NCBI GenBank assembly: GCA_002084705.1
Contig: NBLX01000002.1
Span: 1 to 57,517, forward strand
Length of the DNA stretch: 57,517 nt
DNA from: Desulfobacteraceae bacterium 4572_35.1
GTDB taxonomy: Bacteria; Desulfobacterota; Desulfuromonadia; Desulfuromonadales; Desulfuromonadaceae
Direction of reading: 5' to 3'
In this document: one piece after another, positions 12,954 to 27,843 of the stretch
Position numbering within the stretch: position 1 is the stretch's first letter
Layout of the letters: each line of letters starts with the position of its first letter
Position numbers and translations under genes: made by a program
The notes under the pieces: generated by a model
What the model was told of the DNA's origin: nothing
What the model saw: the letters and a program-made list of their open reading frames with translations, nothing else
Databases searched by the model: none

Positions 12954-13973
12954 TTATTTAATAATGTTTTTTTGCTTGACATGATTTTCAACTTTAAGCC
13001 ACTGGCGTAACATTTTTAACCCTTCTTCAATGGAGATGGTGGGCTGATAATCAAAATCTTTTTTTGCCGCACTGATGTCGAACCAGTGGGCTGTAGAGAG
13101 TTCACGGGCTAAGAAACGGGTCATGGGAGGCTCAACCTGTTTTTTTAACAGACGGTAGCTAATTTCCAACAACCAGCCGATAGGGTAAGCGATTTTGAAT
13201 GGTATACTGCTGGTTACCGGAGCGATGTCAGCGCTGGCCAGAATACCATTGACTATATCCCACAGATAACGAGGATCATCCTGAGAAATGAAATAACATT
13301 TTCCAGCTATTGCAGAATTAGGGAAAAGTTTTTTTGCCGCCAAAAGGTGTGCTGATGCTGCGTTGTCGATATAGATACAATCAACCTTATGATCCAGTTT
13401 ACCAACCTTTTTTAATTTGCCGGCGCGGCCCCGTTCAATTATGCGGGGAGTTAGATGATTATCTCCAGGACCCCAGATAAGATGGGGACGCAGTGCTATT
13501 GTAGCTAATTCGTTACTGTTGGCAGCGATGATATGTTGTTCGGCTATGGCCTTGGTTGCGGGATATGCTGTTTCGTAGTGATCGGGGTAAGGGAGAGATT
13601 CATTAAGTCCCTGCATAGACTTGCCGTTAAATACCACGCTAGGTGAACTAGTATAGATCAGTTTTTCAATTTTAAATTGCTGACAGGCTTTTATTACATT
13701 GTCTGTACCGGTAACGTTGGCTCGGTAGTAATCAGCGTAATCACCCCAGATGCCAGCTTTCGCCGCCACATGAAATACGCTGTCGCAACCCCTTGCGGCT
13801 TGTTCAACCGCGCTGTAGTTACTTAAATCGCCAATGTGCTGTATCGCACCTATTTTGTCGAGTTTTTGGTAATGATTGCGCGCCAGAGTATGAACTTCTG
13901 CCCCTTGTTGGCGCAATATTTTTACTATAGCAAAACCGAGAAAACCACCCCCACCGGTAACTAAGGCTTTCAT
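12954..13973 (-). CDS. oleD: OleD, NAD(P)H-dependent 2-alkyl-3-ketoacid reductase
   Basis: OleD reduces the 2-alkyl-3-ketoalkanoic acid made by OleA to the 2-alkyl-3-hydroxy acid in long-chain olefin synthesis. The 339-residue protein is an extended short-chain dehydrogenase/epimerase: Rossmann motif TGGGGFLG near residue 7, catalytic YPATK (YxxxK) near 140, and RPHLIWGPGD, typical of the 3-beta-HSD/OleD branch. The ATG at 13973 overlaps the oleC stop by four bases (ATGA). It is the last gene of an oleA-oleB-oleC-oleD set, which makes the assignment firm even though the family alone is broad. Confidence 0.88.
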   Translation of the reverse strand: MKALVTGGGGFLGFAIVKILRQQGAEVHTLARNHYQKLDKIGAIQHIGDLSNYSAVEQAARGCDSVFHVAAKAGIWGDYADYYRANVTGTDNVIKACQQFKIEKLIYTSSPSVVFNGKSMQGLNESLPYPDHYETAYPATKAIAEQHIIAANSNELATIALRPHLIWGPGDNHLTPRIIERGRAGKLKKVGKLDHKVDCIYIDNAASAHLLAAKKLFPNSAIAGKCYFISQDDPRYLWDIVNGILASADIAPVTSSIPFKIAYPIGWLLEISYRLLKKQVEPPMTRFLARELSTAHWFDISAAKKDFDYQPTISIEEGLKMLRQWLKVENHVKQKNIIK

Positions 13974-15631
13974 GATAATTTCTTGCCGGCCCATACTGCC
14001 AGTTTTTCCCGAAATATTTTAGCATTGTGGCGGATGTCCACCGGAAAAGAGGGGTGAAACAATATTTCCACTATCGATTTAGTATGGGGATACTTTTCTT
14101 GAATGATACGCAGCTCTTTTGCAATAGTGGCGCTATTTTTAAGATCCTGTTTATTGAGCAGTTCGACACATAGAATTGGCTGTTGATTGCCCGGTTTGCC
14201 TATGCCAACCAAAGCTGTGCGATAAACTTTAGGGTGGGTGTTGAACACTGCTTCGCAGGGGATGGTAAACATTGTTTCTTGTGTGGTTTGTACCCGTTGC
14301 GTTTTACGTCCACAAAACCATATTTTACCATCGTTGTCGCAATAGCCAAGATCTCCCATGCGGTGATAAAAGCCATCAAAACAAGGGATTTTAGCCAATT
14401 CAGTTGCCGCATCAAGGTCGAAATATCCTCGAGTTACCTGTTCCCCTTTTACACATATCTCGCCAATTATCCCATTGTCGACGCACAAATTGTCATCCCA
14501 GATGTCAATGGCATTATCATCAATGGAAATAATCCTGACATCTGCTCCATCAACTGGACAACCTACACATATCCCCTGTCCTGAATCGGTTAAATAGCGG
14601 GTGTGGTTAAGGATGGTATTGCTGTCGATGGAACATACGGGCAAGGCTTCTGTTGCACCATAAGGTGTGTAAATGGGGGTCTTGTCGTTGAGCATGGAGC
14701 TAAATTGTTCAAGCACCGCCGCAGGTACTGGTGCTCCAGCAGAGATGACCCGTTTCAGTGTTGGTAATTTGAGCTGTTGTGTAGTGCCGAAATTTGCGAC
14801 ACGACGTAGCAGTGCTGGCGAACCGAACATATTGGTAACGCCAAAATTTTCAATAGCTTCAAAAATACGTTGAGGATTAACCTGTGCCGGCTTGGTAGCA
14901 TCCATGTCTGGGATAATCGCTGTCATTCCCAATGCCGGAGCAAACAGAGCAAACAGCGGGAAAGTGCACAGGTCTATCTCGCCAACCTGAATGTTGTATA
15001 ATCTCTGCAATGCATTGATTTGGGCATTGAAGTTAGCGTGGGTATATATTGCTCCTTTGGGTGTGCCGGTACTACCGCTGGTAAATAATATTGCGGCGAT
15101 CTCGTCATTGCTCGGCTGATGTGTTGTGAAACTGAGCTTTGAACCGCTCTGCTGCTTCAACTTTGGCAAACTCTGGCAGTCGGGAAAGCATACTGAGGCG
15201 GTGGTAAATATTTTCTGCAGTGAGCCTTTACCCCAACTTAACAATTTGCGCGCTAACTGAGCTTTGCTAATACCGATAAACACCTGTGGTTTAGCCTGTT
15301 CTAGGCACCTCTTGATGTTTTTTATCCCCATGCCTGGATCAATCAGAACCGGGATAGCTCCAAGTTTAAACAGAGCAAAGGTGATCGCAAAAAAATCGAG
15401 ACCAGGTTTGACCATTACTACCGTACGCTGACCACATTCAACGCCATTTTTGTGTAGAGTGGCGGCGAGATGGTCACTTTCTTGGTCTAACTGAGCATAG
15501 GTATAATGGATATAACTTACTTGACCAGCTTTGCTTCGGTGGTCAGGATATACAACGGCTGCACTGTATGGAATCTGTTTAGCCCGTTGGGATAAATAAC
15601 TGGCAATATTGGGAGTTGATTTGTTGTCCAT
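13970..15631 (-). CDS. oleC: OleC, beta-lactone synthetase (AMP-forming superfamily)
   Basis: OleC activates the 2-alkyl-3-hydroxy acid with ATP and closes it to a beta-lactone. The 553-residue ANL-superfamily protein has the P-loop-like AILFTSGSTGTPKGAIYTH, the YGATEALPV motif of the A5 region, and GEICVKGEQVTRGYFD with HRMGDLGY further on. The shortened C-terminal domain with TTQETMFTIPCEAVFNTHP resembles OleC rather than acyl-CoA ligases. The start ATG touches the oleB stop (one-base overlap) and the stop overlaps oleD, so the whole set is one translationally coupled operon. Confidence 0.88.
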   Translation of the reverse strand: MDNKSTPNIASYLSQRAKQIPYSAAVVYPDHRSKAGQVSYIHYTYAQLDQESDHLAATLHKNGVECGQRTVVMVKPGLDFFAITFALFKLGAIPVLIDPGMGIKNIKRCLEQAKPQVFIGISKAQLARKLLSWGKGSLQKIFTTASVCFPDCQSLPKLKQQSGSKLSFTTHQPSNDEIAAILFTSGSTGTPKGAIYTHANFNAQINALQRLYNIQVGEIDLCTFPLFALFAPALGMTAIIPDMDATKPAQVNPQRIFEAIENFGVTNMFGSPALLRRVANFGTTQQLKLPTLKRVISAGAPVPAAVLEQFSSMLNDKTPIYTPYGATEALPVCSIDSNTILNHTRYLTDSGQGICVGCPVDGADVRIISIDDNAIDIWDDNLCVDNGIIGEICVKGEQVTRGYFDLDAATELAKIPCFDGFYHRMGDLGYCDNDGKIWFCGRKTQRVQTTQETMFTIPCEAVFNTHPKVYRTALVGIGKPGNQQPILCVELLNKQDLKNSATIAKELRIIQEKYPHTKSIVEILFHPSFPVDIRHNAKIFREKLAVWAGKKLS

Positions 15632-16524
15632 TATTGATTACTGCTGTTTTTGCAACGGATGAAATCCGATATAATCGGAATAACTTCATCGCTGATATCT
15701 TCAAGAATATAGTGGCCGACGTTGTGCCAACTTTTTACTGTTGCTTTGGGAAAGCGAAGTTTCCACTGAGCCAAAAATTGACTATTAAAAACAAAGTCTT
15801 TTTCTCCCCAACAGATAAGCATGGGGACGTTTGTTAATTTATTCAGATTATTTTCAACCCGGTCAACTTCGGCATAAGCACTGTCAGTAGGAGATAGGGG
15901 AATATCCTGAACAAATCGTAAGGTGGCGATGCGGTTGCGCCAACTGTTGTATGGCGCGGTGTAGGCGCAGCGCAGTGCCCGTGGTAGGGGGTTTTGTTTG
16001 CACCCAACCCATGCAGCACCGAGGCTGAAGGCGTTGCCTGCGCGAATTAAAAAAGAACCCACAGCAGTGTCACGGCAAATTTTTAGACTGAAGGGGAGTT
16101 GTTTATCTTTGGGCAGGTGAAATGCCGCAGTATTCATAATTACCAGTTTGGCAATTCGCTCTGGATATTTTGTGGCATAAGCCATGCCGATCATGCCGCC
16201 CCAGTCGTGTACGACTAGTGTGATGTTCTCTTTTATCTCTAGCGTGTCGAGAAGTTGTTCCAAATTGTCGACCCGACTGGTGAGGGTGTAATCATACTGC
16301 TCATCGCCTGGTTTATCTGACAAACCACAGCCAACGTGATCGGGGACGATAACGCGATGATCGCTGCTTAGTTGCACAGCTAAGCGGCGGTAATAGAAAC
16401 TCCAACTCGGATTGCCGTGCAACATCACAACAGGTGATCCTGTGCCAGCATCGAGATAATGGTAGTTTATCCCACCATCTAATTTTAGAAATTTACCAGA
16501 GAAAGGTAATAAACGTTTCACCAC
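15631..16524 (-). CDS. oleB: OleB, beta-lactone decarboxylase (alpha/beta hydrolase)
   Basis: OleB decarboxylates the beta-lactone from OleC to give the cis-olefin. It is a 297-residue alpha/beta hydrolase close to haloalkane dehalogenases: oxyanion-hole HGNPSWSFYYRRL near residue 36, nucleophile Asp107 in VVHDWGG (Asp instead of Ser, as in OleB and dehalogenases), and the catalytic His in NVGHYILED near the C-terminus. The start is GTG at 16524, overlapping the oleA stop by seven bases. Outside this operon it would be called a haloalkane dehalogenase; the neighbours decide for OleB. Confidence 0.88.
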   Translation of the reverse strand: MVKRLLPFSGKFLKLDGGINYHYLDAGTGSPVVMLHGNPSWSFYYRRLAVQLSSDHRVIVPDHVGCGLSDKPGDEQYDYTLTSRVDNLEQLLDTLEIKENITLVVHDWGGMIGMAYATKYPERIAKLVIMNTAAFHLPKDKQLPFSLKICRDTAVGSFLIRAGNAFSLGAAWVGCKQNPLPRALRCAYTAPYNSWRNRIATLRFVQDIPLSPTDSAYAEVDRVENNLNKLTNVPMLICWGEKDFVFNSQFLAQWKLRFPKATVKSWHNVGHYILEDISDEVIPIISDFIRCKNSSNQ

Positions 16525-17561
16525 TCAACTCCTAACATCATACAGTTTAAACCGCTGCCAATCCCTAACATTGCAACCTTGTGTCCAGCTTGCAGTACGT
16601 TGCGTTCTGCGGCGATGGCTGCAGTTATCGGTAAAGAGACAGTTCCAATATTACCTAAAAACGGGTAGGTGCTGAAATCCTTATCGGCACTGATATTTAA
16701 TTCATGCAAAATTGCGTTTTGATGGGCTGAACCCACTTGGTGACAGATAATTTTGTCGATATCATCTCCGCTCCAATTCATAGTATCAAGAAACACCCGC
16801 CAGGTCTCTTTACCCAAGGCTACACCATTTTGCATTACTGCCACGGCGTCGGTGTTCATAAATTGACGAAACTGGTCTTGACCATCCTTTTCAACCCCCC
16901 AGCGACATAATTCATGGTGCCGTGGTTGAGCCATGGTGGTACCACCAAGTAGACGATGGCTGTTGGAACTGGCAAGGGAAGAATCAGTCAATAATACTGC
17001 TACCGCTCCAGAACCACCAGTAAGGGTGGCAATAGAACGGGCAAAAAACGACATATCTTTATTAGCTAACATGCGTCGAATTGTGGTTTCGTTTAATTCC
17101 CGTGCACTTTCGCACGACACCACCAGCCCTGCACGTATTTGTCCCAATTCGATACGGTTGGCGATGTCGAGGATACCATTCAATACACCGAGGCAGGCGT
17201 TGCTAATATCGTATATCATAACTTCGCCAGAGATCCTCAGCTCATTGGCTACGCGGCAGGCGGTGGCAGGTTCAAACAGTTCCCGGCAGACCCCGGTGTA
17301 GGTAATTGCCCCGATATCATCAGCCGATATGGACGCTGTTGCTAAAGCTTTTTTGCCAGCTTGAGCAGCCCCCTGTGATAGGGGAGTGTCCGGTTGCCAC
17401 CAGCGCCGTTCTCGAATACCTGTTAGCGCTTGAAGTTGCCCCGGAGTAATATGGAGAGCCTCGTATAGCCCACTTAATTGCTGCTCGAGTTCAGCTGAAC
17501 TGACAACAACTGGCGGTAATTCGTAAGCTATGTTGTTAATATAGACGTTACTATATCTCAT
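16518..17561 (-). CDS. oleA: OleA, acyl-CoA head-to-head condensing enzyme
   Basis: OleA is a thiolase-fold enzyme that joins two fatty acyl-CoAs by a non-decarboxylative Claisen condensation, the committed step to long-chain olefins. In the 347-residue protein I see the catalytic Cys123 (NACLG), His274 (CHQVGSAH), Asn304 (LGNIGT) and Glu97 in RELFEP. The 26-residue Glu-Cys and 30-residue His-Asn spacings equal those of characterised Xanthomonas OleA. FabH-type KASIII enzymes lack this Glu. I chose the ATG at 17561, inside the end of the preceding gene (11-base overlap); a GTG at 17591 is possible. Confidence 0.92.
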   Translation of the reverse strand: MRYSNVYINNIAYELPPVVVSSAELEQQLSGLYEALHITPGQLQALTGIRERRWWQPDTPLSQGAAQAGKKALATASISADDIGAITYTGVCRELFEPATACRVANELRISGEVMIYDISNACLGVLNGILDIANRIELGQIRAGLVVSCESARELNETTIRRMLANKDMSFFARSIATLTGGSGAVAVLLTDSSLASSNSHRLLGGTTMAQPRHHELCRWGVEKDGQDQFRQFMNTDAVAVMQNGVALGKETWRVFLDTMNWSGDDIDKIICHQVGSAHQNAILHELNISADKDFSTYPFLGNIGTVSLPITAAIAAERNVLQAGHKVAMLGIGSGLNCMMLGVEW

Positions 17562-18012
17562 TATCCGACTTTGTGTATGAATCACAGCCACTATTGTTTT
17601 GCTGTGTTGAATAATTATTGATAGCGTAATTTTCGATCATGGCTCTGCCACCAGAATTGAGCCATCTTATCCCTATAGCATAAAGGCGATCCTGCTTGAG
17701 TTTGTTGTAAAAAGCGTTTAGAACAACGGAAACACGGCGTGTCTGTTCCGGTGTCCATTGGTGCGCTGGATGAAGATGTATATGATGAAGAAGCTCTTGA
17801 TCATCACTGTTCTCAGGGTAGCATTGGATATAATCTATAGCCCAAGATAACATGTCAGGATGTGAATTATGTTTGTGGTGGATCGCTTCTCCACTTAACA
17901 GAAGAGGAATTGATAATTTGTTTTTACGTAGCACCAGTTGCGCCAGTAAAAATACCGATTTTTGATCACGATTAACTAACAAGAAACTTACTCCACTGAA
18001 GTTAAAATTCAA
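17551..18012 (-). CDS. Unknown protein, first gene of the ole operon
   Basis: I do not recognise this 153-residue protein. It is soluble, rich in His in the middle (LLHHIHLHPAHQW), and has a basic, Leu-rich N-terminal half (FLLAQLVLRKNKLSIPLLLSGEAIHHK). It starts with TTG at 18012, preceded by GGAG at a proper distance, and its 3' end overlaps the oleA start by 11 bases, so it is translationally coupled to the olefin pathway. It could be a regulator or accessory protein; the sequence gives no motif to choose. The 178 bases upstream, before the divergent gene at 18191, should hold the operon promoter, but no convincing -35/-10 pair was found. Confidence 0.7.
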   Translation of the reverse strand: MNFNFSGVSFLLVNRDQKSVFLLAQLVLRKNKLSIPLLLSGEAIHHKHNSHPDMLSWAIDYIQCYPENSDDQELLHHIHLHPAHQWTPEQTRRVSVVLNAFYNKLKQDRLYAIGIRWLNSGGRAMIENYAINNYSTQQNNSGCDSYTKSDNEI

Positions 18013-18190
18013 ATAATTCTCCGGAGCGCATACTGTCAGAAACTGGACAACTGCGCAAGAAAATTACTGAAAAGGATGGTTAAGCTATAGCTTTTTTGAT
18101 AAGTTTGCCTCAAAAAAAATAGATTCAGTATTGCGACAGATCTCTTTTGGTTAAATTATAAGCTGTTTTTAGAGGAAGGGAAAGATCTCC

Positions 18191-19015
18191 ATGCAGTGGT
18201 TTGCATATTTTATCTGGGGTGCGCTCTCATTATGTATAGTTGCGGCTTTGTTTAGTTATTTTTATGCTCGTTATTTTGGCAATAGATCACAGAAAATAGA
18301 AACCGACGAAAACAATGCTGATAATGAACAGGAATTTGCCTTTGATGACAGACGTTGGCAGGTGTTGCTCAACAGCAGCCCATTTAATGAAAGTGAAGTT
18401 CCAGAAATGTCCCAAGAACGGATTAAATGGGCTGGTGAATTGTTTGGTGTTGCCCCGCAATGGTTTGCCGGTGGTGATGATCCTATGTTTGACTGTCTTA
18501 CTTTTCATAATAATGTTGGAGCAAGTGTAGAATTTATTCGTCAACGGATGGATGAAAATAAACGGCTGCGTCTATATGCAATTAAGCCATTAGGAGTTGA
18601 ACTTTCTGAAACAGCTTACGATGCCTGTGTTGTTCTATGTTTTGCTTCACCTGTAAGTTATGGTGAAAAGGCTGCATGGCGTTTTTGGCCGGTAAATGTT
18701 TATTGGGAGTGGGGTTATGAACCGGAACAGATGCAGTGCCGGCAGATAATATATACTGCCATGCAGTGTGGCTGTGAAGTTGTTGGATTGGAGCTTGATC
18801 TTAACGAATTGTACTTTTTGCTCGAAAGTAAATTGATACCTGAGCCATTGTATGCCTTCTCACCGCAGCCAGATAATACAACACTTGCGCCACAGTGGAA
18901 TGCATTGTCTCTGGCTAATGCAGGGGAGTCGGTGATGGGGCAATGTGAATCTACCCTGTCAGCTGACGACCTAAATCAGTTGATTCAGGAAACCGGGTTG
19001 GCAACCGGAAAATGA
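18191..19015 (+). CDS. Unknown membrane-anchored protein
   Basis: A 274-residue protein with one N-terminal membrane helix (about residues 4-26, FAYFIWGALSLCIVAALFSYF) and an acidic soluble remainder, probably cytoplasmic. No domain is recognised. The ATG at 18191 has a strong GAGGAAGGG ribosome-binding site. It is the only plus-strand gene inside the otherwise minus-strand ole/pfa region, diverging from the ole operon. Its 3' end overlaps the end of the PilZ gene by 65 bases, and both frames look genuine. Confidence 0.65.
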   Translation: MQWFAYFIWGALSLCIVAALFSYFYARYFGNRSQKIETDENNADNEQEFAFDDRRWQVLLNSSPFNESEVPEMSQERIKWAGELFGVAPQWFAGGDDPMFDCLTFHNNVGASVEFIRQRMDENKRLRLYAIKPLGVELSETAYDACVVLCFASPVSYGEKAAWRFWPVNVYWEWGYEPEQMQCRQIIYTAMQCGCEVVGLELDLNELYFLLESKLIPEPLYAFSPQPDNTTLAPQWNALSLANAGESVMGQCESTLSADDLNQLIQETGLATGK

Positions 19016-19271
19016 AGTAAAACCCGATTGTATCGTCGTTAAAGTGGTTGGCAATGGCATTAAATTCAAGACATATGTCACTACCTTCCAAAACCATTGT
19101 GATGACACATTTCTGCTCTGCTTGCAGTTGTGGAACTTTATCTTTGGGGAATCGCAGTAAAGCTCCCTTGAGGGAGATATCCATGACGCAACAATCGTTG
19201 TTTATGCCATCACATTTCAGATGAGCTTTTTCGATAAATTGCACACGCGCATAACTTCTCTTATTTGGCAT
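18951..19271 (-). CDS. PilZ-domain protein (probable c-di-GMP receptor)
   Basis: A 106-residue single PilZ domain. The N-terminal RSYARVQF approximates the RxxxR c-di-GMP-binding motif, and MDISLKGALLRFP corresponds to the D/NxSxxG motif. The ATG is preceded by GGGAGG with five bases of spacing. PilZ domains bind cyclic di-GMP and relay it to motility, envelope or biosynthetic targets. It lies between the ole and pfa gene groups, so it could link lipid production to c-di-GMP, but no direct evidence exists. The last 65 bases are antisense to the opposing gene. Confidence 0.75.
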   Translation of the reverse strand: MPNKRSYARVQFIEKAHLKCDGINNDCCVMDISLKGALLRFPKDKVPQLQAEQKCVITMVLEGSDICLEFNAIANHFNDDTIGFYFIFRLPTRFPESTDLGRQLTG

Positions 19272-19318
19272 TCAAGCCTCCCTTTTGAAGCAATTTTAGT
19301 AAAAATATAGACTGATAT

Positions 19319-20173
19319 TTAAGCCGACGGATGATATAGCAAGGCGCTTCCCATACTGCAGCCAATATCGGCGGCGATAACCGGGCACTTTGTTTTGAGC
19401 AAAAAGAATATGTTTGCTTTGTTGTCGCTGAGGGTTTCATAATTACCCTGTCCCTTAGCTATAATCATATCAGCCTTGTTAAATAGAGCAACAAAAGCGG
19501 GGTCACAATTATTTAAAATAGTGCCAGGGCTTATGTCTCCATTATCGATAACCGTAACAAGTTCAGTTATTCCGGCCTGCTGCGCTTCTGCATAGGTGGC
19601 ATCATTAATGATTGGACCGCCACGCACTGCAAAAGTTGTTTTATCGAGGGGTAATTGGTTAAGCAGGATCTTATCCAATACAATCTCACCAGCGTTATCA
19701 CCCAAATACAGTATAGATTCCGCTTTGGCTATAGAAGCAGCGAAGTTGTCCAAATCCCCGAGCAGTGGTACCTCCAGAGCTTGTTCAACGCTGGTTAGTA
19801 TCTGTTCAACGGTCATTCCATGATATACCCCGTGATCGATACTGTTGCCGGCAATGGCTACCAACACTGCTGCACGGAGCTTATTGTCGGCCATGAGTAC
19901 TTGTTGCTCCAATTGAGGCAACAGTTGCATGGCCAGTTGTTGATCACGTTGTTTTTCTGTTAAGTATGGATCGCTGATACCACTTTGTTCACGAATTAAT
20001 TTGTGTATCTGGCGTGCCATTGCTGGCGGAGAATGATGAAAATCAATTGTGCTTAGATATTTCAACACCGCCCGTAAAGTTTTTTCCCGTATCTCGTCAT
20101 TGAGTTCAACTAACTCCATAACACTCATTGTCTGTTTTACAAAACAGGGGATACATTCAAGATATGTTTGCAT
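19319..20173 (-). CDS. DUF89 (ARMT1-like) damage-control phosphatase family protein
   Basis: A 284-residue DUF89 protein. Family members are metal-dependent phosphatases thought to remove damaged phospho-metabolites. Visible signatures are CIPCFVKQTM near the N-terminus (typical of the prokaryotic subfamily), LGDNAGEIVLDKIL with metal-binding Asp and Asn, VRGGPIINDATYAEA, and the substrate-site KGQGNYETL. It follows the PfaA-like gene on the same strand after 64 bases and may be cotranscribed. A role in protecting a cofactor or thioester intermediate would be speculation. Confidence 0.82.
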   Translation of the reverse strand: MQTYLECIPCFVKQTMSVMELVELNDEIREKTLRAVLKYLSTIDFHHSPPAMARQIHKLIREQSGISDPYLTEKQRDQQLAMQLLPQLEQQVLMADNKLRAAVLVAIAGNSIDHGVYHGMTVEQILTSVEQALEVPLLGDLDNFAASIAKAESILYLGDNAGEIVLDKILLNQLPLDKTTFAVRGGPIINDATYAEAQQAGITELVTVIDNGDISPGTILNNCDPAFVALFNKADMIIAKGQGNYETLSDNKANIFFLLKTKCPVIAADIGCSMGSALLYHPSA

Positions 20174-20237
20174 GAAAGCTTCCTGATAATGTAACTATTC
20201 AGCGTGTTGGGCTAAATAGTTACTTGATAGTTTAGCG

Positions 20238-22724
20238 TTACAATTGATTATTTACAAAGGCCTGATGTAAATTTTCAGTCATGGTACACTCATAGCCCTC
20301 TAATCGAGCCAGCAATTGGCGCGTGCGCTCATCTATAAAGTCAATATTTGCGCTGGCACTGTTTTGGCTAGTTTTGGTGACCCGGCATTGAATACGAGTG
20401 GTTCCAGATGGAAATTGTTCACAATATTGACGGTATTGGGCGGCAAAGTTTGGCAATGAACCTAGATGTTTCTGTGCAAAACTCCATAAGATCATCATTT
20501 GAAAGGCGCTATCCAGCAACTGCGGATCGGCTACCCAAGTGTTGCGCAAAGGATTTTCCATCCATTTTGCTGGTGGAGGCGCATTGCTGGACAGGGCAAT
20601 TATCCCTTCGGTGTTGTTGCCGATAACTTGCTTTAATCCCTGGAGTAATGGACCGTGAAATAGTTGCCCGGCTGAATATATTTCACCCTGAGTCGCCATC
20701 TCTGCGCCGTCAACAACCAGGGGATCAATAGCAGGTCGTTGATCAGGCAGTGCAGAGGACAATATGATGTCGGCGCTGGCGTGAATCGTTTGATCCGTCT
20801 CGTTGTAGATTTGCATAGGGATGATAAATGTTCCATCCTCGACACTGGTGCCGCCGTAACGTAGACCAATAGCTGTGTCGTTATTTGCTGCCAGCTTGAT
20901 TCCGTTGAGGATACGCAGATTGTCAAAACCGTAAAATATTAAGCCGGGATTGTTATGTAATGCACCTTGTGCCAGCCATTCTACCAGCAATGCCATTGGT
21001 ACTACCGCTTTGTTGTTGATCACATGGTGATGTAACACTGGCATATTGTTGCTGTTCAGGTGCAGATCAAAAACCTTATCCGAGTAGACATTGCTGACAG
21101 GTTTTTTTTTGCCGTTATTGTCGCCATTATTGTGTTCATCGCTCTTGTCATTTTTAGCCGGGGTCTGCTCCGTTCCACCAAGAATAACGACTTCGACTTC
21201 GTTATCATTGTGAGCCAGCTCCTGGAGCAGGTAGTGGGAACCAACTTGAAGATCAATTACACCTATACCTTCGGCGGCAAAAATTTTCTTCAAGGCAGGC
21301 GTAACCATGCCGCCGTCCCATGGACCCCAGTTGAAAGAGACGATACGACAACTTTTCCGTTGCCGTGTCAGTGCTTGGGCACTTTTATTAAGAACTTCGT
21401 TGGCAACGGCATAATCTACCTGTCCACTGCGACCGAAGCGTCCAGTTGATGATGAGAATAGGGCGATAAAGTCAAGATTGTCATTATAGGTTGCTTGAAT
21501 TAGCGCTTGCAATCCGTTGATCTTGGTTGAATAAACCATCTCAAACTGTTCCGGGGTTTTATCCTCTATTTTTCGATCGGCCAAAACGCCAGCACCGTGA
21601 ATGAAACCACGGATATTGCCAAGATCACGGGCCTCTGTAACGGCGGATGCAACAGCTTGCTCGTCGCGTATATCAACACTGCGATAGATCACTTTTGATC
21701 CTGCTTGCTGTAGACGCTGGATATTATGAGTGAGCTCACGGTTGTTTAACACTTTACTGCAGGCGTTGTTAAGTTCACGTGGTTTTAACGGCTGCGCCGC
21801 GTGAGTCATAAGCGCTTTTTTTATTGCGGCTTCGTCATGTGCGGCTAAGAGCCAGTTTTGTTCAGGCTCCGGTAGAGGACTGCGCCCTAAAAGCAGTAGA
21901 GTCGGTTGCCCAGAGTTTGCCATGGCGTTGGCTACTTCGGCGGTAACACCGCGAGCGCCACCACTGATTATAACAACATCTTCAGCGGTTAAGTGCAGGG
22001 CAGGGCTGTCTGTTGCCAGATTCTTTTCCTGTAACGCTAGAGTACACCTGCCGCTGGCATTTATCCCAACTTCCAGTGGATCTGCGTGCAACAACTCGTC
22101 AATAACTGATTCAGCTTGAGCGGTTTCACTGAGATCTGCACCTAAATCAACAGCCTTGCAATTTACTTCGGACCATTCATGGCTGGCAGTTTTGCTTATC
22201 CCAGCTAACCCGCCGGATAGAGGGTCAATGATCGTTGTTTCACCACCAAAACCACACTTGCCGTCCAAACGTGAGACGGTTACCAAGCAGCTGGCTTCGT
22301 CAGCGCCATGATTTTTCAATGCTGCGCCACAGCGTTGTACCAGTTGAAAACTATCACTTAAAAATTGGCTATCGGTGCCAACTTGTGGGGCGATAATTAC
22401 CAGCCCCACAAGTTGTTGTGGAACAATATCGTGATTGGGGCTGATAAGCTCTGAATTAAACCCGCGTTGTTGCAATTGCTCAACAATGGTTGTGCTCAAT
22501 GTTGAACAATCATTGACTACCCATATTGTGCCGTTCTCCTTTAATGGTAATTGATCACGATGCGTTGGTAGCTCCGTTAGAGTAATTACCTGACGGCTGA
22601 TGGTTGCAGTACTAAGGTCTTTTTTTTTATCGTTTGTTGCAGTTGCCGTTAAATCTGGTGCAGCATTATTTTGATTGCCAGATGTTACTTCCATGGCTTC
22701 AACAATCTGCCGTAGAGTTTGCAA
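20238..22724 (-). CDS. pfaA: PfaA-like synthase, C-terminal part: ACP end, ketoreductase, dehydratase
   Basis: This frame continues a PfaA-type polyunsaturated acyl-chain synthase. It opens in the last helix of an acyl-carrier domain (TLRQIVEAMEV); the apparent TTG start is just the Leu of LGSLQTLRQ. Next come a PfaA-style ketoreductase with VVIISGGARGVTAE near residue 247, FIHGAGVLADRKIEDKTPEQ and the FSSSTGRFGRSGQVDYAVANE catalytic region. The C-terminus carries a hot-dog dehydratase-like fold with catalytic-type His in PVLHHHVINNKAVVPMALL. The frame equals that of the KS-AT part at 22851-26342, from which it is separated only by the scrambled ACP segment. One gene of about 2,000 codons is inferred. 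Confidence 0.85.
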   Translation of the reverse strand: MQTLRQIVEAMEVTSGNQNNAAPDLTATATNDKKKDLSTATISRQVITLTELPTHRDQLPLKENGTIWVVNDCSTLSTTIVEQLQQRGFNSELISPNHDIVPQQLVGLVIIAPQVGTDSQFLSDSFQLVQRCGAALKNHGADEASCLVTVSRLDGKCGFGGETTIIDPLSGGLAGISKTASHEWSEVNCKAVDLGADLSETAQAESVIDELLHADPLEVGINASGRCTLALQEKNLATDSPALHLTAEDVVIISGGARGVTAEVANAMANSGQPTLLLLGRSPLPEPEQNWLLAAHDEAAIKKALMTHAAQPLKPRELNNACSKVLNNRELTHNIQRLQQAGSKVIYRSVDIRDEQAVASAVTEARDLGNIRGFIHGAGVLADRKIEDKTPEQFEMVYSTKINGLQALIQATYNDNLDFIALFSSSTGRFGRSGQVDYAVANEVLNKSAQALTRQRKSCRIVSFNWGPWDGGMVTPALKKIFAAEGIGVIDLQVGSHYLLQELAHNDNEVEVVILGGTEQTPAKNDKSDEHNNGDNNGKKKPVSNVYSDKVFDLHLNSNNMPVLHHHVINNKAVVPMALLVEWLAQGALHNNPGLIFYGFDNLRILNGIKLAANNDTAIGLRYGGTSVEDGTFIIPMQIYNETDQTIHASADIILSSALPDQRPAIDPLVVDGAEMATQGEIYSAGQLFHGPLLQGLKQVIGNNTEGIIALSSNAPPPAKWMENPLRNTWVADPQLLDSAFQMMILWSFAQKHLGSLPNFAAQYRQYCEQFPSGTTRIQCRVTKTSQNSASANIDFIDERTRQLLARLEGYECTMTENLHQAFVNNQL

Positions 22725-22902
22725 ACTGCCGAGTTGATCTGGTTGTAGTGCTGGCAGCTCGGGGAGTTTTTCCTGAATAGCCGATAGAATTTCTAGCCGA
22801 TAGAATTTCTACCCGCTTAATGGAGTCGATACCAAGGTCGGCATCGAGGCTCATATCCAGCTCCAGCATCTCTTGCGGATAGCCGGTTTTTTCAGCCACC
22901 AC
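22699..22902 (-). pseudogene. Out-of-frame ACP fragment within the PfaA-like gene
   Basis: This short frame carries the middle of an acyl-carrier domain: VAEKTGYPQEMLELDMSL, then DADLGIDSIKRVEILSA, with the phosphopantetheine Ser in GIDSIKR near 22823. It then runs out of frame at a 16-bp tandem duplication. It is not a separate gene; it is the piece of the synthase displaced into another frame between the two repeats described below. Deleting one copy of each repeat would fuse it in frame with both neighbours. Confidence 0.75.
22779..22810. repeat. 16-bp tandem duplication that shifts the frame in the ACP
   Basis: The unit AGCCGATAGAATTTCT occurs twice head to tail (22779-22794 and 22795-22810). 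With one copy the minus strand reads VEILSAIQEKLPEL, a normal ACP; with two copies it shifts by one base. There is no mismatch between copies. Confidence 0.9.
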
Positions 22903-23034
22903 TTCAAGTAAGGTGGCTGAAACATCCGCACCTGTTGTTGCGCATCGAGGCTCATATCCAGCTCCAGCATCTCTTGCGGATAGCCGGTTTTTTCAGCCAC
23001 CACTTCAAGTAAAGTGGCTGAAACATCCGCACCT
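22841..23034. repeat. 93-bp direct repeat in the ACP region (period 101 bp)
   Basis: Bases 22841-22933 and 22942-23034 are identical at 92 of 93 positions. Each copy encodes the N-terminal half of a PfaA-type ACP (GADVSATLLEVVAEKTG ... LDMSLDA). The period of 101 bases shifts the frame by two. The sequences just outside the copies differ and encode two different inter-ACP linkers (ATTGADV versus SSTIGADV), so at least two ACP units lie behind it. Confidence 0.92.
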
Positions 23035-26000
23035 ATAGTTGATGAGGCTGCCGTAACTGTACTTGCTATGCTAGCTGACGGCGTTGGAATAGCTGGTGAA
23101 GCTGAAATCGGAGCCGATATGGGCGCTGGAGTAACTACAGCAGAAGTTGTTTGTGCGTTGGCAACAGTTGTAGTTGTACCTGTTGTTGGGCTAATAGGTG
23201 CGGACACCATTTGATGATCCATCAGTGAACGCATTGCTTGAACTGCTGCAGCCTGACCTTCAAGGAATTTGTTGTGTAGCTTAGCAGTATCTTCCTGCAT
23301 CCGTTGCAATACTGTCATGTTTTCCTGTAGAGAACGTAGTGAATCAGCGCTGGACTGATACTGAGTGTTGATGACAGTGGTATCGTTGTTTACCTCCGGG
23401 GCTACCGCAACAGGTGGTTGGGTTTGTTGCTGAACAACAGTTTTGACCTGACTCTCATCAACCAGCTTACGTGTGCTGACTGGGCGTACTTTTTTCTCTT
23501 TGACATAGTTGGCACCACATATTGATACCGTCATTCGTGGAGCTTTTGGTTCTGGCAGCTTCAATTGTTGTTGAGCATAATTTTCGTCCCACTTGCTCAG
23601 TTGAAGCGGATATCCACTTGCGACCAGTTGTACCAAAACGCGAGCCATATCGGTAAGCCCGCTACGTTTACCGTTAGATGAGTCGAGGGCGATGGCGTTA
23701 ACCTGTTTACCCTTAAGAATTTTACCCACCATGCCGGTCAGACGTGCACCTGGGCCGATCTCGACAAAAGTCGTTACACCGTCGCTGTACATCTGTTCTA
23801 TCTGTTGAACAAATTCTACTGGATTAGCTATCTGTTCTGCGAGCAGACTACGCATAGCGGCTGGATCATCAGGGTAGGGTGCAGCAGTTTTGTTGGCATA
23901 TACTGGAGTAGCTGTGCCATTAACCTCTACTTTTTGTAAAGCCATAAGAAAAGGGGCCGAAGCGTCGGCTACCAATTTGCTGTGAAATGCAGCAGCGACA
24001 TCAAGGCTGACGCAGCGTAACCCACGATCTTTACATAGTTTTGCTGCGCGCTCAATTTCACTGCGTGCACCGGACAGAACCCCCTGCGTTGGAGTGTTGC
24101 GATTGGCGAGAACCAGATCCAACTGCTCTTCTGCAAGTAATTGTTCAATTTTGTCCATCTTAGCCGATACCGCTAGCATTGTACCTTTATCACTGCCATC
24201 ACCGGCCATCAATTCGCCACGCAGTCGGGATAACCGGAATAGATCTTCTGCGTTAAAACCGCCAGCAGCGCACAACGCTGTTAACTCACCATAGCTGTGA
24301 CCACCCCATGCCTGAGGTTTGAGACCGAAAGTTTCCAGATATTTCCAAGCACCTAAACTAACGGTGCCAATAGCTGGTTGGGCAACTTGTGTAGCCTGAA
24401 GGTTGGCTATAGCCCGATTATTGTCGTCATCGGTATATATTGAGTGGGGATAAATAATGGAGCTGAGTTTGTCGTCGAGCTTGAGAGTGCCGTCGGCATC
24501 CTGTAACACATTAAGCAACTGTGGTGCGTGACAGGCGAGGTCGCTGAGCATGTGAGGATATTGTGCACCTTGTCCGGGAAACAGCACCGCCAGTTTCCCG
24601 TTACTATTGCTGTTGTTGCCATACCAGATGCCTGTTGGAGTTCCTGCTAACGCCTTATCGCTGTTGAGTAATTGCTCGGCGCTTGCTGTAATTGTCGCAA
24701 CATCCTTATCCGCTTCGATAACAAACAACAGTCGTTCAGTGGCGTTATTATCAAATTCAGCTCTGGTTTTAGCGGCAAAACGGCGTAACTGCTCAGGTGT
24801 ACCAGCCGTTGGCAGTTGCTGAAGCTGCTGCTTGATCGCAGCTTTGTTGTCGCCACACAATGCTATTATCTGTGGTGCATCACTCCAGTCACTGCTTAAA
24901 CGCTTATCTTGGTGCTCCTCCAATACACAGTGAAAATTGCTACCGCCAAAACCAAAGGCACTCACGGCTGCACGCCGGGGATGATTTGGGGTAGCCAGCC
25001 AAGGTCGACTCATTGTGTTGACATAGAATGGAGTATTGCCTTCGGAGATAACCCGTTGTGGCTCTTTAACATTAATAGTTGGCGGTAATACTTTGTTGTG
25101 AAGAGCTAGAGCCATTTTGATCAGGCCGGCAGAACCTGCTGATGCCTTGGTGTGACCAATTTGCGATTTTACTGAGCCGAGAGCACACCACGGCTTCCCA
25201 TCGCTTTCGCCATATACTTCGCGTAAAGCCTTTATTTCCGTAGCATCACCAACACGGGTTCCTGTGCCGTGTGCTTCAAGCAGGGTTATTGTTTTTGGGT
25301 CAATATTGGCAAGTTGATAGGCATGGTTGAGGGCTTTTTTCTGTCCGTTGGCATTGGGCTCGTAGATAGCTCCTTTTTTACCATCACTCGCTGTGCCAAT
25401 GCCGCGGATAACTGCATAAATATTGTCATTGTCGCGTTCGGCGTCTGCCAGCCGTTTCAGCACTACCAGTCCTAATCCCTCTCCTATCAATGTGCCGTCA
25501 GATTGGCTGTCAAAAGGGCGGATAATGTTGGTTGGGGATAACGCTGGAGTTTTGCTAAAGCAGGTGTACATAAATATGTCGTTGAAGGTATCTATACCAC
25601 CGGTGATAACCATATCACTGCGTCCGCAGGCTAACTCCATGGCAGCCATGTGAACGGCACTCAGTGAACTCCCGCATGCTGCGTCAATAACGCTATTGGT
25701 TCCGCCGAGATCGTACTGCTTGCTGATTCGACCGGCAACAACATTACCTAATAAACCAGGAAATGAATTTTCCTGCCACTCTACATAATTGTCAGCTATC
25801 CGATCCACTACCTCTTCGGCTACATCGGCGGGGATACCGGCATCTTTAAGGGCTTTGCGCCAGTATGGATGACCCAAACGGGCACTGAGGGGGATCACCA
25901 TCTCTAATGCACCGGTAACGCCGAGGAGGACGCTTACACGTTCACGGGCAAAATCGCCTTCGGGGTCGTAACCTGCATCTTTAAGAGCTTCACGTGCGGC

Positions 26001-26342
26001 GACTAAGCCTAACAGTTGTGAAGTGTCAATTGCTTCCAAGATATTAGGTTGGATGCTGAATTCAAGGGGATTGAAATCGATAGGGTCGAGAAAACCACCC
26101 CGTTTGCCATAGCTTTTATCCGGTGTTTTAGGATCTGGGTCATACAGGTCGGCGATGCGCCAATGCGTTTCCGGCACGTCAGTGATTGTATCTGTCCCGG
26201 CCTTGATGTTGGCCCAGAAAGCATCCTTGGTATTTGATTTTGGGAAAAGGCAGCCAATACCGACTATCGCTAGTGGTACATTTAGGGTTTCAGGATTGGT
26301 TGTTGGCTGTGAACTATTTTTATTTGCACCCGAATTAGTCAC
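22851..26342 (-). CDS. pfaA: PfaA-like synthase, N-terminal part: ketosynthase, acyltransferase, start of ACP
   Basis: The N-terminal part of a PfaA-type iterative synthase. The ketosynthase (about residues 20-485) has Cys223 in DAACGSS, His in EAHGTGT and His in GHTKASAG. A malonyl-type acyltransferase follows (about 585-900), with FPGQGAQYPHM and catalytic Ser near 680 in GGHSYGE. A Pro/Thr/Ala-rich linker leads to the first half of an ACP. After LDMSLDA the frame enters the second repeat copy wrongly, and the last ~29 residues are spurious. The ATG at 26342 overlaps the pfaD stop by eight bases. The canonical PfaA order is KS-AT-ACPn-KR-DH, as found here together with 20238-22724. Confidence 0.9.
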   Translation of the reverse strand: MTNSGANKNSSQPTTNPETLNVPLAIVGIGCLFPKSNTKDAFWANIKAGTDTITDVPETHWRIADLYDPDPKTPDKSYGKRGGFLDPIDFNPLEFSIQPNILEAIDTSQLLGLVAAREALKDAGYDPEGDFARERVSVLLGVTGALEMVIPLSARLGHPYWRKALKDAGIPADVAEEVVDRIADNYVEWQENSFPGLLGNVVAGRISKQYDLGGTNSVIDAACGSSLSAVHMAAMELACGRSDMVITGGIDTFNDIFMYTCFSKTPALSPTNIIRPFDSQSDGTLIGEGLGLVVLKRLADAERDNDNIYAVIRGIGTASDGKKGAIYEPNANGQKKALNHAYQLANIDPKTITLLEAHGTGTRVGDATEIKALREVYGESDGKPWCALGSVKSQIGHTKASAGSAGLIKMALALHNKVLPPTINVKEPQRVISEGNTPFYVNTMSRPWLATPNHPRRAAVSAFGFGGSNFHCVLEEHQDKRLSSDWSDAPQIIALCGDNKAAIKQQLQQLPTAGTPEQLRRFAAKTRAEFDNNATERLLFVIEADKDVATITASAEQLLNSDKALAGTPTGIWYGNNSNSNGKLAVLFPGQGAQYPHMLSDLACHAPQLLNVLQDADGTLKLDDKLSSIIYPHSIYTDDDNNRAIANLQATQVAQPAIGTVSLGAWKYLETFGLKPQAWGGHSYGELTALCAAGGFNAEDLFRLSRLRGELMAGDGSDKGTMLAVSAKMDKIEQLLAEEQLDLVLANRNTPTQGVLSGARSEIERAAKLCKDRGLRCVSLDVAAAFHSKLVADASAPFLMALQKVEVNGTATPVYANKTAAPYPDDPAAMRSLLAEQIANPVEFVQQIEQMYSDGVTTFVEIGPGARLTGMVGKILKGKQVNAIALDSSNGKRSGLTDMARVLVQLVASGYPLQLSKWDENYAQQQLKLPEPKAPRMTVSICGANYVKEKKVRPVSTRKLVDESQVKTVVQQQTQPPVAVAPEVNNDTTVINTQYQSSADSLRSLQENMTVLQRMQEDTAKLHNKFLEGQAAAVQAMRSLMDHQMVSAPISPTTGTTTTVANAQTTSAVVTPAPISAPISASPAIPTPSASIASTVTAASSTIGADVSATLLEVVAEKTGYPQEMLELDMSLDAQQQVRMFQPPYLKWWLKKPAIRKRCWSWI

Positions 26343-27843
26343 GCAGGTACTCCTTGATCTGTTCGATGGTTAATGGATTCAGGGAGATGCTGTTTGCGTC
26401 TATGTCGATCCCCTGTTGTCGCAGATAATTGGCTCGTATAAGAACTGCCGCATTAAATAAAATGTTGAGATTGACGCATGCTACATTGCGGTTTTCCGGT
26501 TGTTGTAAAAAGGTATCTTTTGCCCATGCGTTAAATGCACCCATGGCTGGGCCGCACCACACCTGAAAATCCATTTTACGACCTGGATCGCCAGCGTTAG
26601 CCCAATGGGTTGCCTGCCCGAGATAGGCGCGGAACACCAACGCCATTAGATGTTTAGGATCGCGTTCAGCACGTTCCACCTGGCTTGGATCACGTTGCAG
26701 AAAATAATCACGGGTTTTTTGCCAAACATTATTTAGCGGTTCACGAAAAAAAGTTTGCTCCAACTTTAGTCGCTCTGGCTCTGGTATGGCGTCAAGGCTG
26801 GGATGCTGGCGATATATTTCATATAATTTTTTGGCGCGCATGGAGAACATGGTTCCCCGTTTAAGAACCTGTACATCAACACCCATTTCAAACATATCCG
26901 CTGCCGGTGCCATGGCTACATCAGCCTGTCTTGTTTCGGCCAGCATTTGACGCACCATATCTGAGGTGCCTGATTCTACACACGCCTGATTGACACTGCC
27001 GGTAACCATGTATGCAGCTCCCATAGCTATAGCCGCAGCCGCTGCATGCGGTGTGGCGATGCCCCCTGCTAAACCGATACGTGGAGTAGTTGGATAGTTG
27101 TATTGTTTTTGTAGTTGATCACGTAAGGCGCAAATAGTTGGGAACAAGGCAAGTGCTGGGCGATTGTCGGTGTGCCCGCCAGAGTCTGCTTCAGCGGTAA
27201 TATCTTCAGCCATCGGTATTTTTGCGGCTAGAGCAGCCTGCTCTGGTGTGATAACCCCTTGCTCCACTAGTTTGTTAACCATTTTTTGTGGTGGTGGTGA
27301 AAGGAAATGGTGCGCTACTTCTTCGCGCGAAATTTTGGCGATAATTCGATTTGGAGCAATGATATTGCCGGAGCTGTCGCTGTGGATTCCATGAAGTCGG
27401 TAGTGAACTAAAGCCAAACTCATGGTTAAAAAGGCAGAGGCTTCGATTAGGTGGATATCGTTGGCTATATATAACTTTACCAGCGCCTGTTCCAGAGATA
27501 TTTCATGCGGGCTGTGGATTAGATTGCAGCCGTATTGACCTTCAGGTAGAGCTTTTTTTATGATGTTTATCTGCTCTTGTACTTGCTCTAGTGGTAGACC
27601 GGCAGCACCGAAAAAGCCGAGCATTCCAGCTGTGCCCATGGCAATCACCATCTGTGCAGAAGATATCCCTTTTGCCATAGAACCGGCTATAATGGGATAG
27701 CGCAGTTTGTGTGTACGTAGAAAGAGTGGGTCACCGCAAAATTCTAATTTTATTGGTGGGATATCAAGTGTACCGTCTGTTGCTGCAAAGCGCAGAGGTT
27801 TATTCAGATGTTGAAGTGTTGAAAGATTCGTCAAGTTGTCCAT
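26335..27843 (-). CDS. pfaD: PfaD-family trans-acting enoyl reductase
   Basis: PfaD is an FMN-dependent TIM-barrel enzyme of the nitronate monooxygenase fold that reduces enoyl intermediates for Pfa-type and related polyketide synthases. The 502-residue protein has the family features: YPIIAGSMAKGISSAQMVIAMG near the N-terminus, RIGLAGGIATPHAAAAAIAMGA around the flavin phosphate site, and the PfaD-specific AADMFEMGVDVQVLKRGTMF and PLNNVWQKTRDYFLQRDP. It is the first gene before the PfaA-like gene and overlaps its start, so they form one transcription unit. PfaB, PfaC and PfaE homologues are not adjacent. Confidence 0.93.
   Translation of the reverse strand: MDNLTNLSTLQHLNKPLRFAATDGTLDIPPIKLEFCGDPLFLRTHKLRYPIIAGSMAKGISSAQMVIAMGTAGMLGFFGAAGLPLEQVQEQINIIKKALPEGQYGCNLIHSPHEISLEQALVKLYIANDIHLIEASAFLTMSLALVHYRLHGIHSDSSGNIIAPNRIIAKISREEVAHHFLSPPPQKMVNKLVEQGVITPEQAALAAKIPMAEDITAEADSGGHTDNRPALALFPTICALRDQLQKQYNYPTTPRIGLAGGIATPHAAAAAIAMGAAYMVTGSVNQACVESGTSDMVRQMLAETRQADVAMAPAADMFEMGVDVQVLKRGTMFSMRAKKLYEIYRQHPSLDAIPEPERLKLEQTFFREPLNNVWQKTRDYFLQRDPSQVERAERDPKHLMALVFRAYLGQATHWANAGDPGRKMDFQVWCGPAMGAFNAWAKDTFLQQPENRNVACVNLNILFNAAVLIRANYLRQQGIDIDANSISLNPLTIEQIKEYLRD

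Follow-up and report, generated by a model that had tools for sequence, protein, structure and literature searches.

In the OleABCD pathway of olefin formation, the steps follow the established order OleA, OleD, OleC and OleB. A source of precursors for olefin biosynthesis has been proposed in the Type I secondary lipid synthases, the class under which Desulfuromonas acetoxidans and Geobacter are listed (Shulse and Allen, 2011, PMC3098273). In Geobacter bemidjiensis, the genes stand in tandem as pfaDABC-oleABCD-pfaE, and the organism makes C31:9, hentriacontanonaene (2016 review, PMC4882568). OleA also acts on Pfa-derived chains in gammaproteobacteria, where a direct interaction with the acyl carrier protein (ACP) domains of PfaA has been proposed, and OleA with a cloned pfa operon in Escherichia coli gave a 31:8 ketone (2019, PMC6463001). 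C31:8 and C31:9 have been measured in Desulfotalea psychrophila, in which the polyketide route to polyunsaturated fatty acids (PUFA) is absent according to a reviewer printed with the paper (PMC2649909); this is at odds with a simple rule by which such polyenes always need Pfa. The present analysis concerns a stretch of 57,517 nucleotides (the window), the whole contig C37 of the genome bin of Desulfobacteraceae bacterium 4572_35.1 (G000; 166 contigs totalling 2.33 Mb, with a completeness of 87.05% and a contamination of 4.77%), in which oleABCD lies beside pfaD and pfaA.

The locus is read here as the Type I (PfaD, PfaA, PfaBC) secondary lipid synthase and the OleABCD enzymes of a Desulfuromonas-group bacterium, making a long polyene, a reading to which a probability of roughly 0.86 is given. 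The gene identities, the catalytic motifs, the presence of pfaBC in the bin and the order-wide co-occurrence and co-location of the two gene groups are direct observations. The pathway is already known and has been described for relatives, and what is unusual here is the side-by-side placement of the genes alone. The window adds an uncultured member of the Desulfuromonas group to the anaerobes holding the enzymes for polyene hydrocarbons.

Genes of the Ole pathway and of the synthase

A preliminary description, made from the window alone, had claimed four coupled ole genes with the OleA residues Glu97, Cys123, His274 and Asn304, and the claim is borne out. Four minus-strand open reading frames (ORFs) carry Ole signatures (Table 1), oleA, oleB, oleC and oleD stand together with the Cys-His-Asn-Glu set of OleA, and the four residues, numbered from the ATG at 17561 (more likely the start than the GTG at 17591), are invariant across 16 aligned Desulfuromonadales OleA sequences. 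The best PDB matches of OleA are 3row, 3s1z and 3s20 (E 1.4e-52), deposited as 3-oxoacyl-ACP synthase III and presumably the Xanthomonas OleA. The NCBIfam equivalog cut-offs for OleC (NF045785; 681.6 bits, cut-off 850) and OleD are missed, and the broader NF006720 (OleA) and PRK09274 (OleC) cut-offs are passed; OleB stays under the cut-offs of haloalkane dehalogenase models, at 154.3 and 148.1 bits. The oleD gene is 54–76% identical to the oleD of 15 fetched loci of relatives, those that gave a tblastn match. The catalytic motifs sought are present in OleA, OleB, OleC, OleD, both halves of PfaA, and PfaBC.

The claim of a PfaA-like synthase with its PfaD stood in part: PfaD and the KS-AT and KR-DH parts of PfaA were recovered, but pfaA is split into two ORFs. 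The first of these overlaps pfaD by 8 bases (26335-26342), and the KS-AT half and the KR-DH half (389.8 bits) each fall below the whole-protein cut-off of TIGR02813, 1010.1. All domains of the PfaA set (KS-MAT-ACPn-KR-DH') are found, spread across the two ORFs with a single ACP motif, whose Ser lies between them in another frame and not within the 3' ORF. At the same place stand a 16-bp repeat and a 101-bp tandem duplication (22841-23041; 3 mismatches over 100 aligned bases), the latter being what a repeat collapsed where an assembly was joined would leave. The simplest explanation of the break, and the probable one, is a collapsed ACP array, an assembly fault; a true frameshift is less likely. 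In the same genus, four genomes (G002, G006, G007, G008) have four to five ACP motifs in one open frame of 2289–2376 aa, the draft G001 has a PfaA frame with one ACP motif, and the ACP units of G006, G008 and G002 are 67–89% identical in DNA, with an exact 107-bp run in G006. The fetched contigs of G004, G005, G009 and G011 stop inside or just before the array. ACP arrays thus break or collapse in draft assemblies, and calls of a broken pfaA in such genomes deserve doubt.

The remaining part of the synthase lies on another contig. A PfaA-family search of G000 gave a PfaBC fusion elsewhere in the bin, a single 2310-aa ORF on contig C111 (L006:2658-9590). It comprises two KS-type regions, an AT and FabA-like domains, and has the KS Cys, the AT Ser and two HxxxxxxxPG motifs; only one PfaBC was detected in the bin. 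Its PDB search gave solely polyketide-synthase KS among the 60 of 93 matches listed, the best being to a chain named putative polyketide synthase. The preliminary description had allowed that the partners of PfaA and PfaD lie elsewhere and had proposed a genome search for pfaB and pfaC, which the fusion on C111 now answers. Of the components of a Type I synthase, PfaD is thus recognised by TIGR02814, and the PfaBC fusion is present on another contig of a mixed bin; the listing of D. acetoxidans under Type I supports placing the locus there (PMC3098273). Among 40 relatives (G000 counted, as in all genome sets here), a PfaBC match beyond the KS level was found in 20 of the 21 PfaD-positive genomes, the exception without a full match being G005, which is 88% complete.

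On C111, pfaBC is followed by a cytochrome c7-like gene and an ORF of no assigned identity (L006:974-2544), and the same pair stands between pfaBC and ole in G003, G006, G007, G008, G009, G010 and G013. Beyond these two usual neighbours, the C111 genes after pfaBC were not found in that place in the fetched loci of relatives.

Table 1. Coordinates of the ole and pfa genes of the window and of the features between them
Feature	Position	Strand	Evidence or remark
oleD, 2-alkyl-3-oxoalkanoate reductase (short-chain dehydrogenase/reductase)	12954..13994	-	NF042423 438.1 and NF042422 425.1 bits, both below equivalog cut-off 580; YPATK motif
oleC, beta-lactone synthetase (AMP-binding)	13970..15631	-	PRK09274 743.1 bits, above cut-off 478; TSGSTG and YGATE motifs
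oleB, beta-lactone decarboxylase (haloalkane-dehalogenase-like alpha/beta hydrolase)	15631..16524	-	Abhydrolase_1; HDWGG and GHY motifs
oleA, head-to-head acyl condensing enzyme	16518..17591	-	NF006720 487.1 bits, above cut-off 285
Small helical conserved ORF	17551..18012	-	directly upstream of oleA and overlapping it
Conserved ORF between ole and pfa groups	18191..19015	+	beside ole in 12 of 13 same-family relatives' loci
PilZ-domain ORF	18951..19271	-	PF07238 23.3 bits, cut-off 22.5; last gene of ole-side block
Junction, 47 bp	19272..19318		between ole-side and pfa-side blocks; 98 kb apart in G008, 126 kb in G006
ARMT1-like damage-control phosphatase gene	19319..20173	-	PF01937 E 5.8e-62; adjoins pfaA
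pfaA 3' half: KR and PS-DH	20238..22724	-	PF08659 E 3.3e-39; PF14765 E 1e-9; TIGR02813 positions 1876-2582
ACP region of pfaA	22725..23041	-	frame breaks; 101-bp and 16-bp tandem repeats; one GIDSIK motif
pfaA 5' half: KS-AT and linker	22851..26342	-	TIGR02813 917.8 bits; DAACGSSL, GHSYGE and AFHS motifs
pfaD, trans enoyl reductase	26335..27843	-	TIGR02814 622.7 bits, above cut-off 449.25

Co-occurrence and gene layout in relatives

Among 136 genomes of the order searched for OleA and PfaD, both were found in 63 and neither in 59, with OleA alone in 6 and PfaD alone in 8 (OleA in 69, PfaD in 71, either gene in 77). Fisher's test gives an odds ratio of 77 (p 2.6e-22), uncorrected for shared ancestry, the related genomes not being independent. 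A link between the Ole pathway and the Pfa synthase, asserted in the preliminary description and already proposed in print (PMC3098273), is supported by these numbers; what is new is the count of their co-travel, 63 of the 77 genomes with either gene holding both.

Co-location across the Desulfuromonadales is common, as a proposed comparison of neighbourhoods has now confirmed. OleA and PfaD share a contig in 26 genomes of the order set, of which 21 have pfaD and oleA 13.6–15.8 kb apart on one strand and one has them 22.5 kb apart on one strand; the distance is 8.75 kb in the window and 107, 119 and 136 kb in G008, G006 and G002, all of the same genus. The three read of those 21 (G015, G026, G035) run pfaD-pfaA-pfaBC-oleA, and in G014, G018 and G034 pfaD-pfaA-pfaBC stand together with ole on a separate contig. 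The usual linked layout in the order is pfaD-pfaA-pfaBC-oleABCD, often with a phosphopantetheinyl transferase (PPTase), and it is also found in other phyla. In the best 80 of at least 562 relatives confirmed by OleA alignment in GTDB (the named loci), the DH region of PfaBC lies upstream on the same strand in 67; PfaBC is upstream in 46 of the 50 whose upstream sequence spans 8 kb or more (without it: L121, L175, L191, L197), and the KR of PfaA in 40 of the 47 where it spans 9.9 kb or more. Loci with both upstream include, by their recorded titles, Acidobacteria (L167), Aquisphaera insulae JC669 (L181), Verrucomicrobia (L185), Singulisphaera (L188 and L198) and Elusimicrobia (L190).

The family of the window has a split locus, with pfaBC near ole and pfaDA-ARMT1 107–136 kb off, as seen in the three further genomes of the genus that hold both on a single contig. 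Among its 14 genomes, pfaBC and oleA share a contig in eight, 3.0–11.2 kb apart (G002, G003, G006, G007, G008, G009, G010, G013), and lie on separate contigs in G000, G001, G004, G011 and G012.

Several observations weigh against the proposed pathway. As assembled here, pfaA is not a single intact ORF, and among the 77 order genomes with either gene, 14 have only one of the two; 10 of these fall short of 90% completeness, the other four being G049, G055, G059 and G074. The bin is mixed (4.77% contamination), and the pfaBC on C111 could therefore belong to a sister species. The mixture is also apparent from a second oleA on contig C113 (L059:4184-5004), which has a frame change, lacks about 70–90 residues, His274 among them, and lies near an MTAP-like gene. 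A paralogue was considered and rejected for this copy, as three neighbouring genes of C113 are duplicated on C118 at 63, 86 and 80% amino-acid identity (judged from their translations, these resemble a TPR protein, a sugar or nucleoside kinase and MTAP); the copy probably comes from a contaminating sister species. Finally, a PF01648 search found no Sfp-type PPTase in the 87%-complete G000, and five other members of the genus (G002, G003, G006, G007, G008) each have a single PF01648 match.

The preliminary description had seen no PPTase in the window and proposed searching the genome. An AcpS-sized match does exist, the single PF01648 match in G000 (134 aa, contig C45), but the dedicated PPTase (pfaE) of a pfaABCDE synthase was not found, and the PPTase of G005 used as query gave no match in G000 at E <= 1. 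Among the 25 genomes searched with the PF01648 profile, 14 have at least two matches and 11 have one; the latter are G000, the pfa- and ole-bearing family members G010, G012 and the five named above, and three that have neither pfa nor true ole (G016, G027, G032). In G014, G015, G018, G026, G034, G035, G054 and G108, a second match, of Sfp size, sits no more than about 6 kb from oleA, and G013 has one near oleA; of the 41 named loci whose downstream sequence spans 7 kb or more, 28 have a PPTase match on that side of oleA. Part of the family may normally lack a dedicated PPTase, or the enzyme may be too divergent to detect.

The junction between the ole and pfa blocks

From high to low coordinates, the minus-strand order is pfaD, pfaA (two ORFs), the ARMT1-like gene, the PilZ ORF, the small ORF, oleA, oleB, oleC and oleD, with one plus-strand ORF between the PilZ and small ORFs. 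The preliminary description had the two gene groups about 2 kb apart, with all their genes on the minus strand. Both groups, oleDCBA (12954-17591) and pfaA/pfaD (20238-27843), are indeed on that strand, but the 2.6-kb gap between them holds the conserved plus-strand gene at 18191-19015 besides the ARMT1-like gene, the PilZ ORF and the small ORF reaching into oleA. The genes do not form the uninterrupted same-strand run of a single pfa-ole operon, and the two groups are probably separate transcription units because this plus-strand gene stands between them. The idea of one physically joined locus likewise held only in part: many genomes of the order have joined loci, but pfaD and oleA lie 107–136 kb apart in the three single-contig cases elsewhere in the genus.

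The genes beside the junction belong to two contexts. On the ole side, the small ORF has no Pfam or NCBIfam match, is found at oleA in all 13 same-family relatives' ole loci and also in C113, and has a predicted model (mean local confidence score, pLDDT, 78.4) with no PDB fold match at E <= 0.001; it is a possible ole accessory or regulator. The plus-strand gene was not found in L071, whose contig stops about 0.5 kb past the preceding gene, and a counterpart of the PilZ ORF lies beside ole in G001, G004, G006, G007, G008, G009 and G013. The PilZ-to-oleD block maps to G006 1367975-1374503 and G008 2747127-2753575. On the pfa side, ARMT1 lies downstream of pfaA in all five same-genus loci read that far (G001, G002, G006, G007, G008), and of the 27 ORFs tested from ARMT1 rightwards, as far as the window extends, 26 are matched in the same order in G006 (1241533-1281827), the stretch being inverted in G008. 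The exception is a multihaem cytochrome upstream of pfaD (28037-29311), for which the 200-kb stretches of G006 and G008 with the remainder of this region gave no match.

Because ARMT1 by pfaA, and PilZ, 18191-19015 and 17551-18012 by ole, were seen only in the split state of the family (G015, G026 and G035 hold pfaBC in that place instead), the adjacency in the window appears secondary, split first and rejoined later. The junction was seen in no other examined genome. The adjacency of pfaA, ARMT1, PilZ and ole looks like a later joining of parts that stand apart elsewhere in the genus, or like an artefact of the contig, and defines no new system. Tentatively, at close to an even chance, the locus was split in an ancestor of the family and then re-formed anew, with pfaDA-ARMT1 beside PilZ-oleABCD and pfaBC left elsewhere; the rejoining is best read as one inversion relative to G006 or as removal of the 98-kb stretch relative to G008. 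In G008, pfaBC lies within that stretch, and in the bin of the window it lies beside other genes. If so, the ole block would be a rearrangement-prone module able to return to its precursor genes.

The adjacency may instead be an assembly chimera, the blocks lying apart in the organism as in its genus, a possibility somewhat short of even. Blocks 98 or 126 kb apart in relatives meet here within 47 bp, on a contig that already carries a probable assembly fault in pfaA and in a bin that is mixed; ARMT1 is near oleA in none of the 80 named loci, nor is it on the ole contigs of the nearest relatives G004, G005 and G009. Set against this, the junction lies outside the repeated ACP region, and a tandem-repeat scan reported no repeat there. 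What adjoins the ole block varies in other genomes as well, being a large ORF reading like NAD-glutamate dehydrogenase in G004 and again another gene in G005 and C113 (MTAP-like), names taken from translations, and moves at this boundary therefore seem frequent in the subclade. Moreover, pfaBC on C111 keeps its two usual neighbours and then adjoins other genes, as a real move would leave it.

Two further tests of the junction were tried. The gene downstream of ARMT1 in G008 was uninformative, with many paralogues (16 matches in G000), and base composition was not decisive. The fraction of guanine plus cytosine is 0.436 left of 12000, 0.451 in ole, 0.480 in pfa and 0.428 right of 30000, the pfa block (20238-27843; 0.48) exceeding the ole block (0.45), and the ole block the rest of the window (0.43–0.44). 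The derived gene layout of contig C37 is new, and the novelty of the arrangement is minor.

Proposed product and comparison with described systems

In the proposed pathway, the synthase would build a polyunsaturated acyl chain on the ACPs of PfaA, independently of oxygen, through the KS, AT, KR and DH' activities of PfaA, the KS-CLF-AT-DH-DH of PfaBC and enoyl reduction by PfaD. OleA would couple two such chains head to head, after which OleD would reduce the ketone, OleC would close a beta-lactone and OleB would release CO2. The product would be a long polyene, most likely C31 with 8–9 double bonds; substrate transfer, product and chain length are all argued from published work on relatives.

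Elsewhere, Ole pathways occur without pfa, and Pfa could here make an unrelated product (a membrane PUFA or other secondary lipid) while Ole takes ordinary acyl chains and the neighbourhood is incidental. This is improbable. It would suit the four named loci of 50 without PfaBC upstream, and the 6 of 69 OleA-positive and 8 of 71 PfaD-positive order genomes without the other gene, but it sits poorly with the strong co-occurrence and co-location, with the 31:8 ketone formed by OleA and the cloned pfa operon in E. coli (PMC6463001) and with C31:9 in G. bemidjiensis (PMC4882568). A minimal synthase of PfaA and PfaD feeding Ole without PfaBC, a tempting option of the preliminary description that agrees with the presence of pfaA and pfaD only on contig C37 and with the Type J (pfaD and a pfaA homologue) described for one planctomycete (PMC3098273), is hardly credible and was rejected, as the search of the genome itself gave a complete PfaBC fusion in the same bin and 20 of 21 PfaD-positive relatives have PfaBC beyond the KS level.

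Read as a Type I synthase with OleABCD, the locus resembles the described Type I secondary lipid synthase (PMC3098273) in its pfaD-pfaA order, pfaBC fusion, Desulfuromonas lineage and co-occurring oleABCD, and differs from it in having pfaBC on another contig, pfaDA joined to ole via the ARMT1 and PilZ genes, and pfaA, as assembled, broken at the ACP array. It has the same enzymes, bar the PPTase, as the pfaD-A-B-C-oleA-B-C-D-pfaE locus of G. bemidjiensis (PMC4882568), which is contiguous and includes pfaE, whereas the genes here are split and apparently rejoined, with no Sfp-type PPTase found. With the pfaABCDE and oleABCD of Shewanella and Photobacterium (PMC6463001), it would share a Pfa chain feeding OleA; those systems have separate pfaB and pfaC and make eicosapentaenoic or docosahexaenoic acid, in contrast to the PfaBC fusion here.

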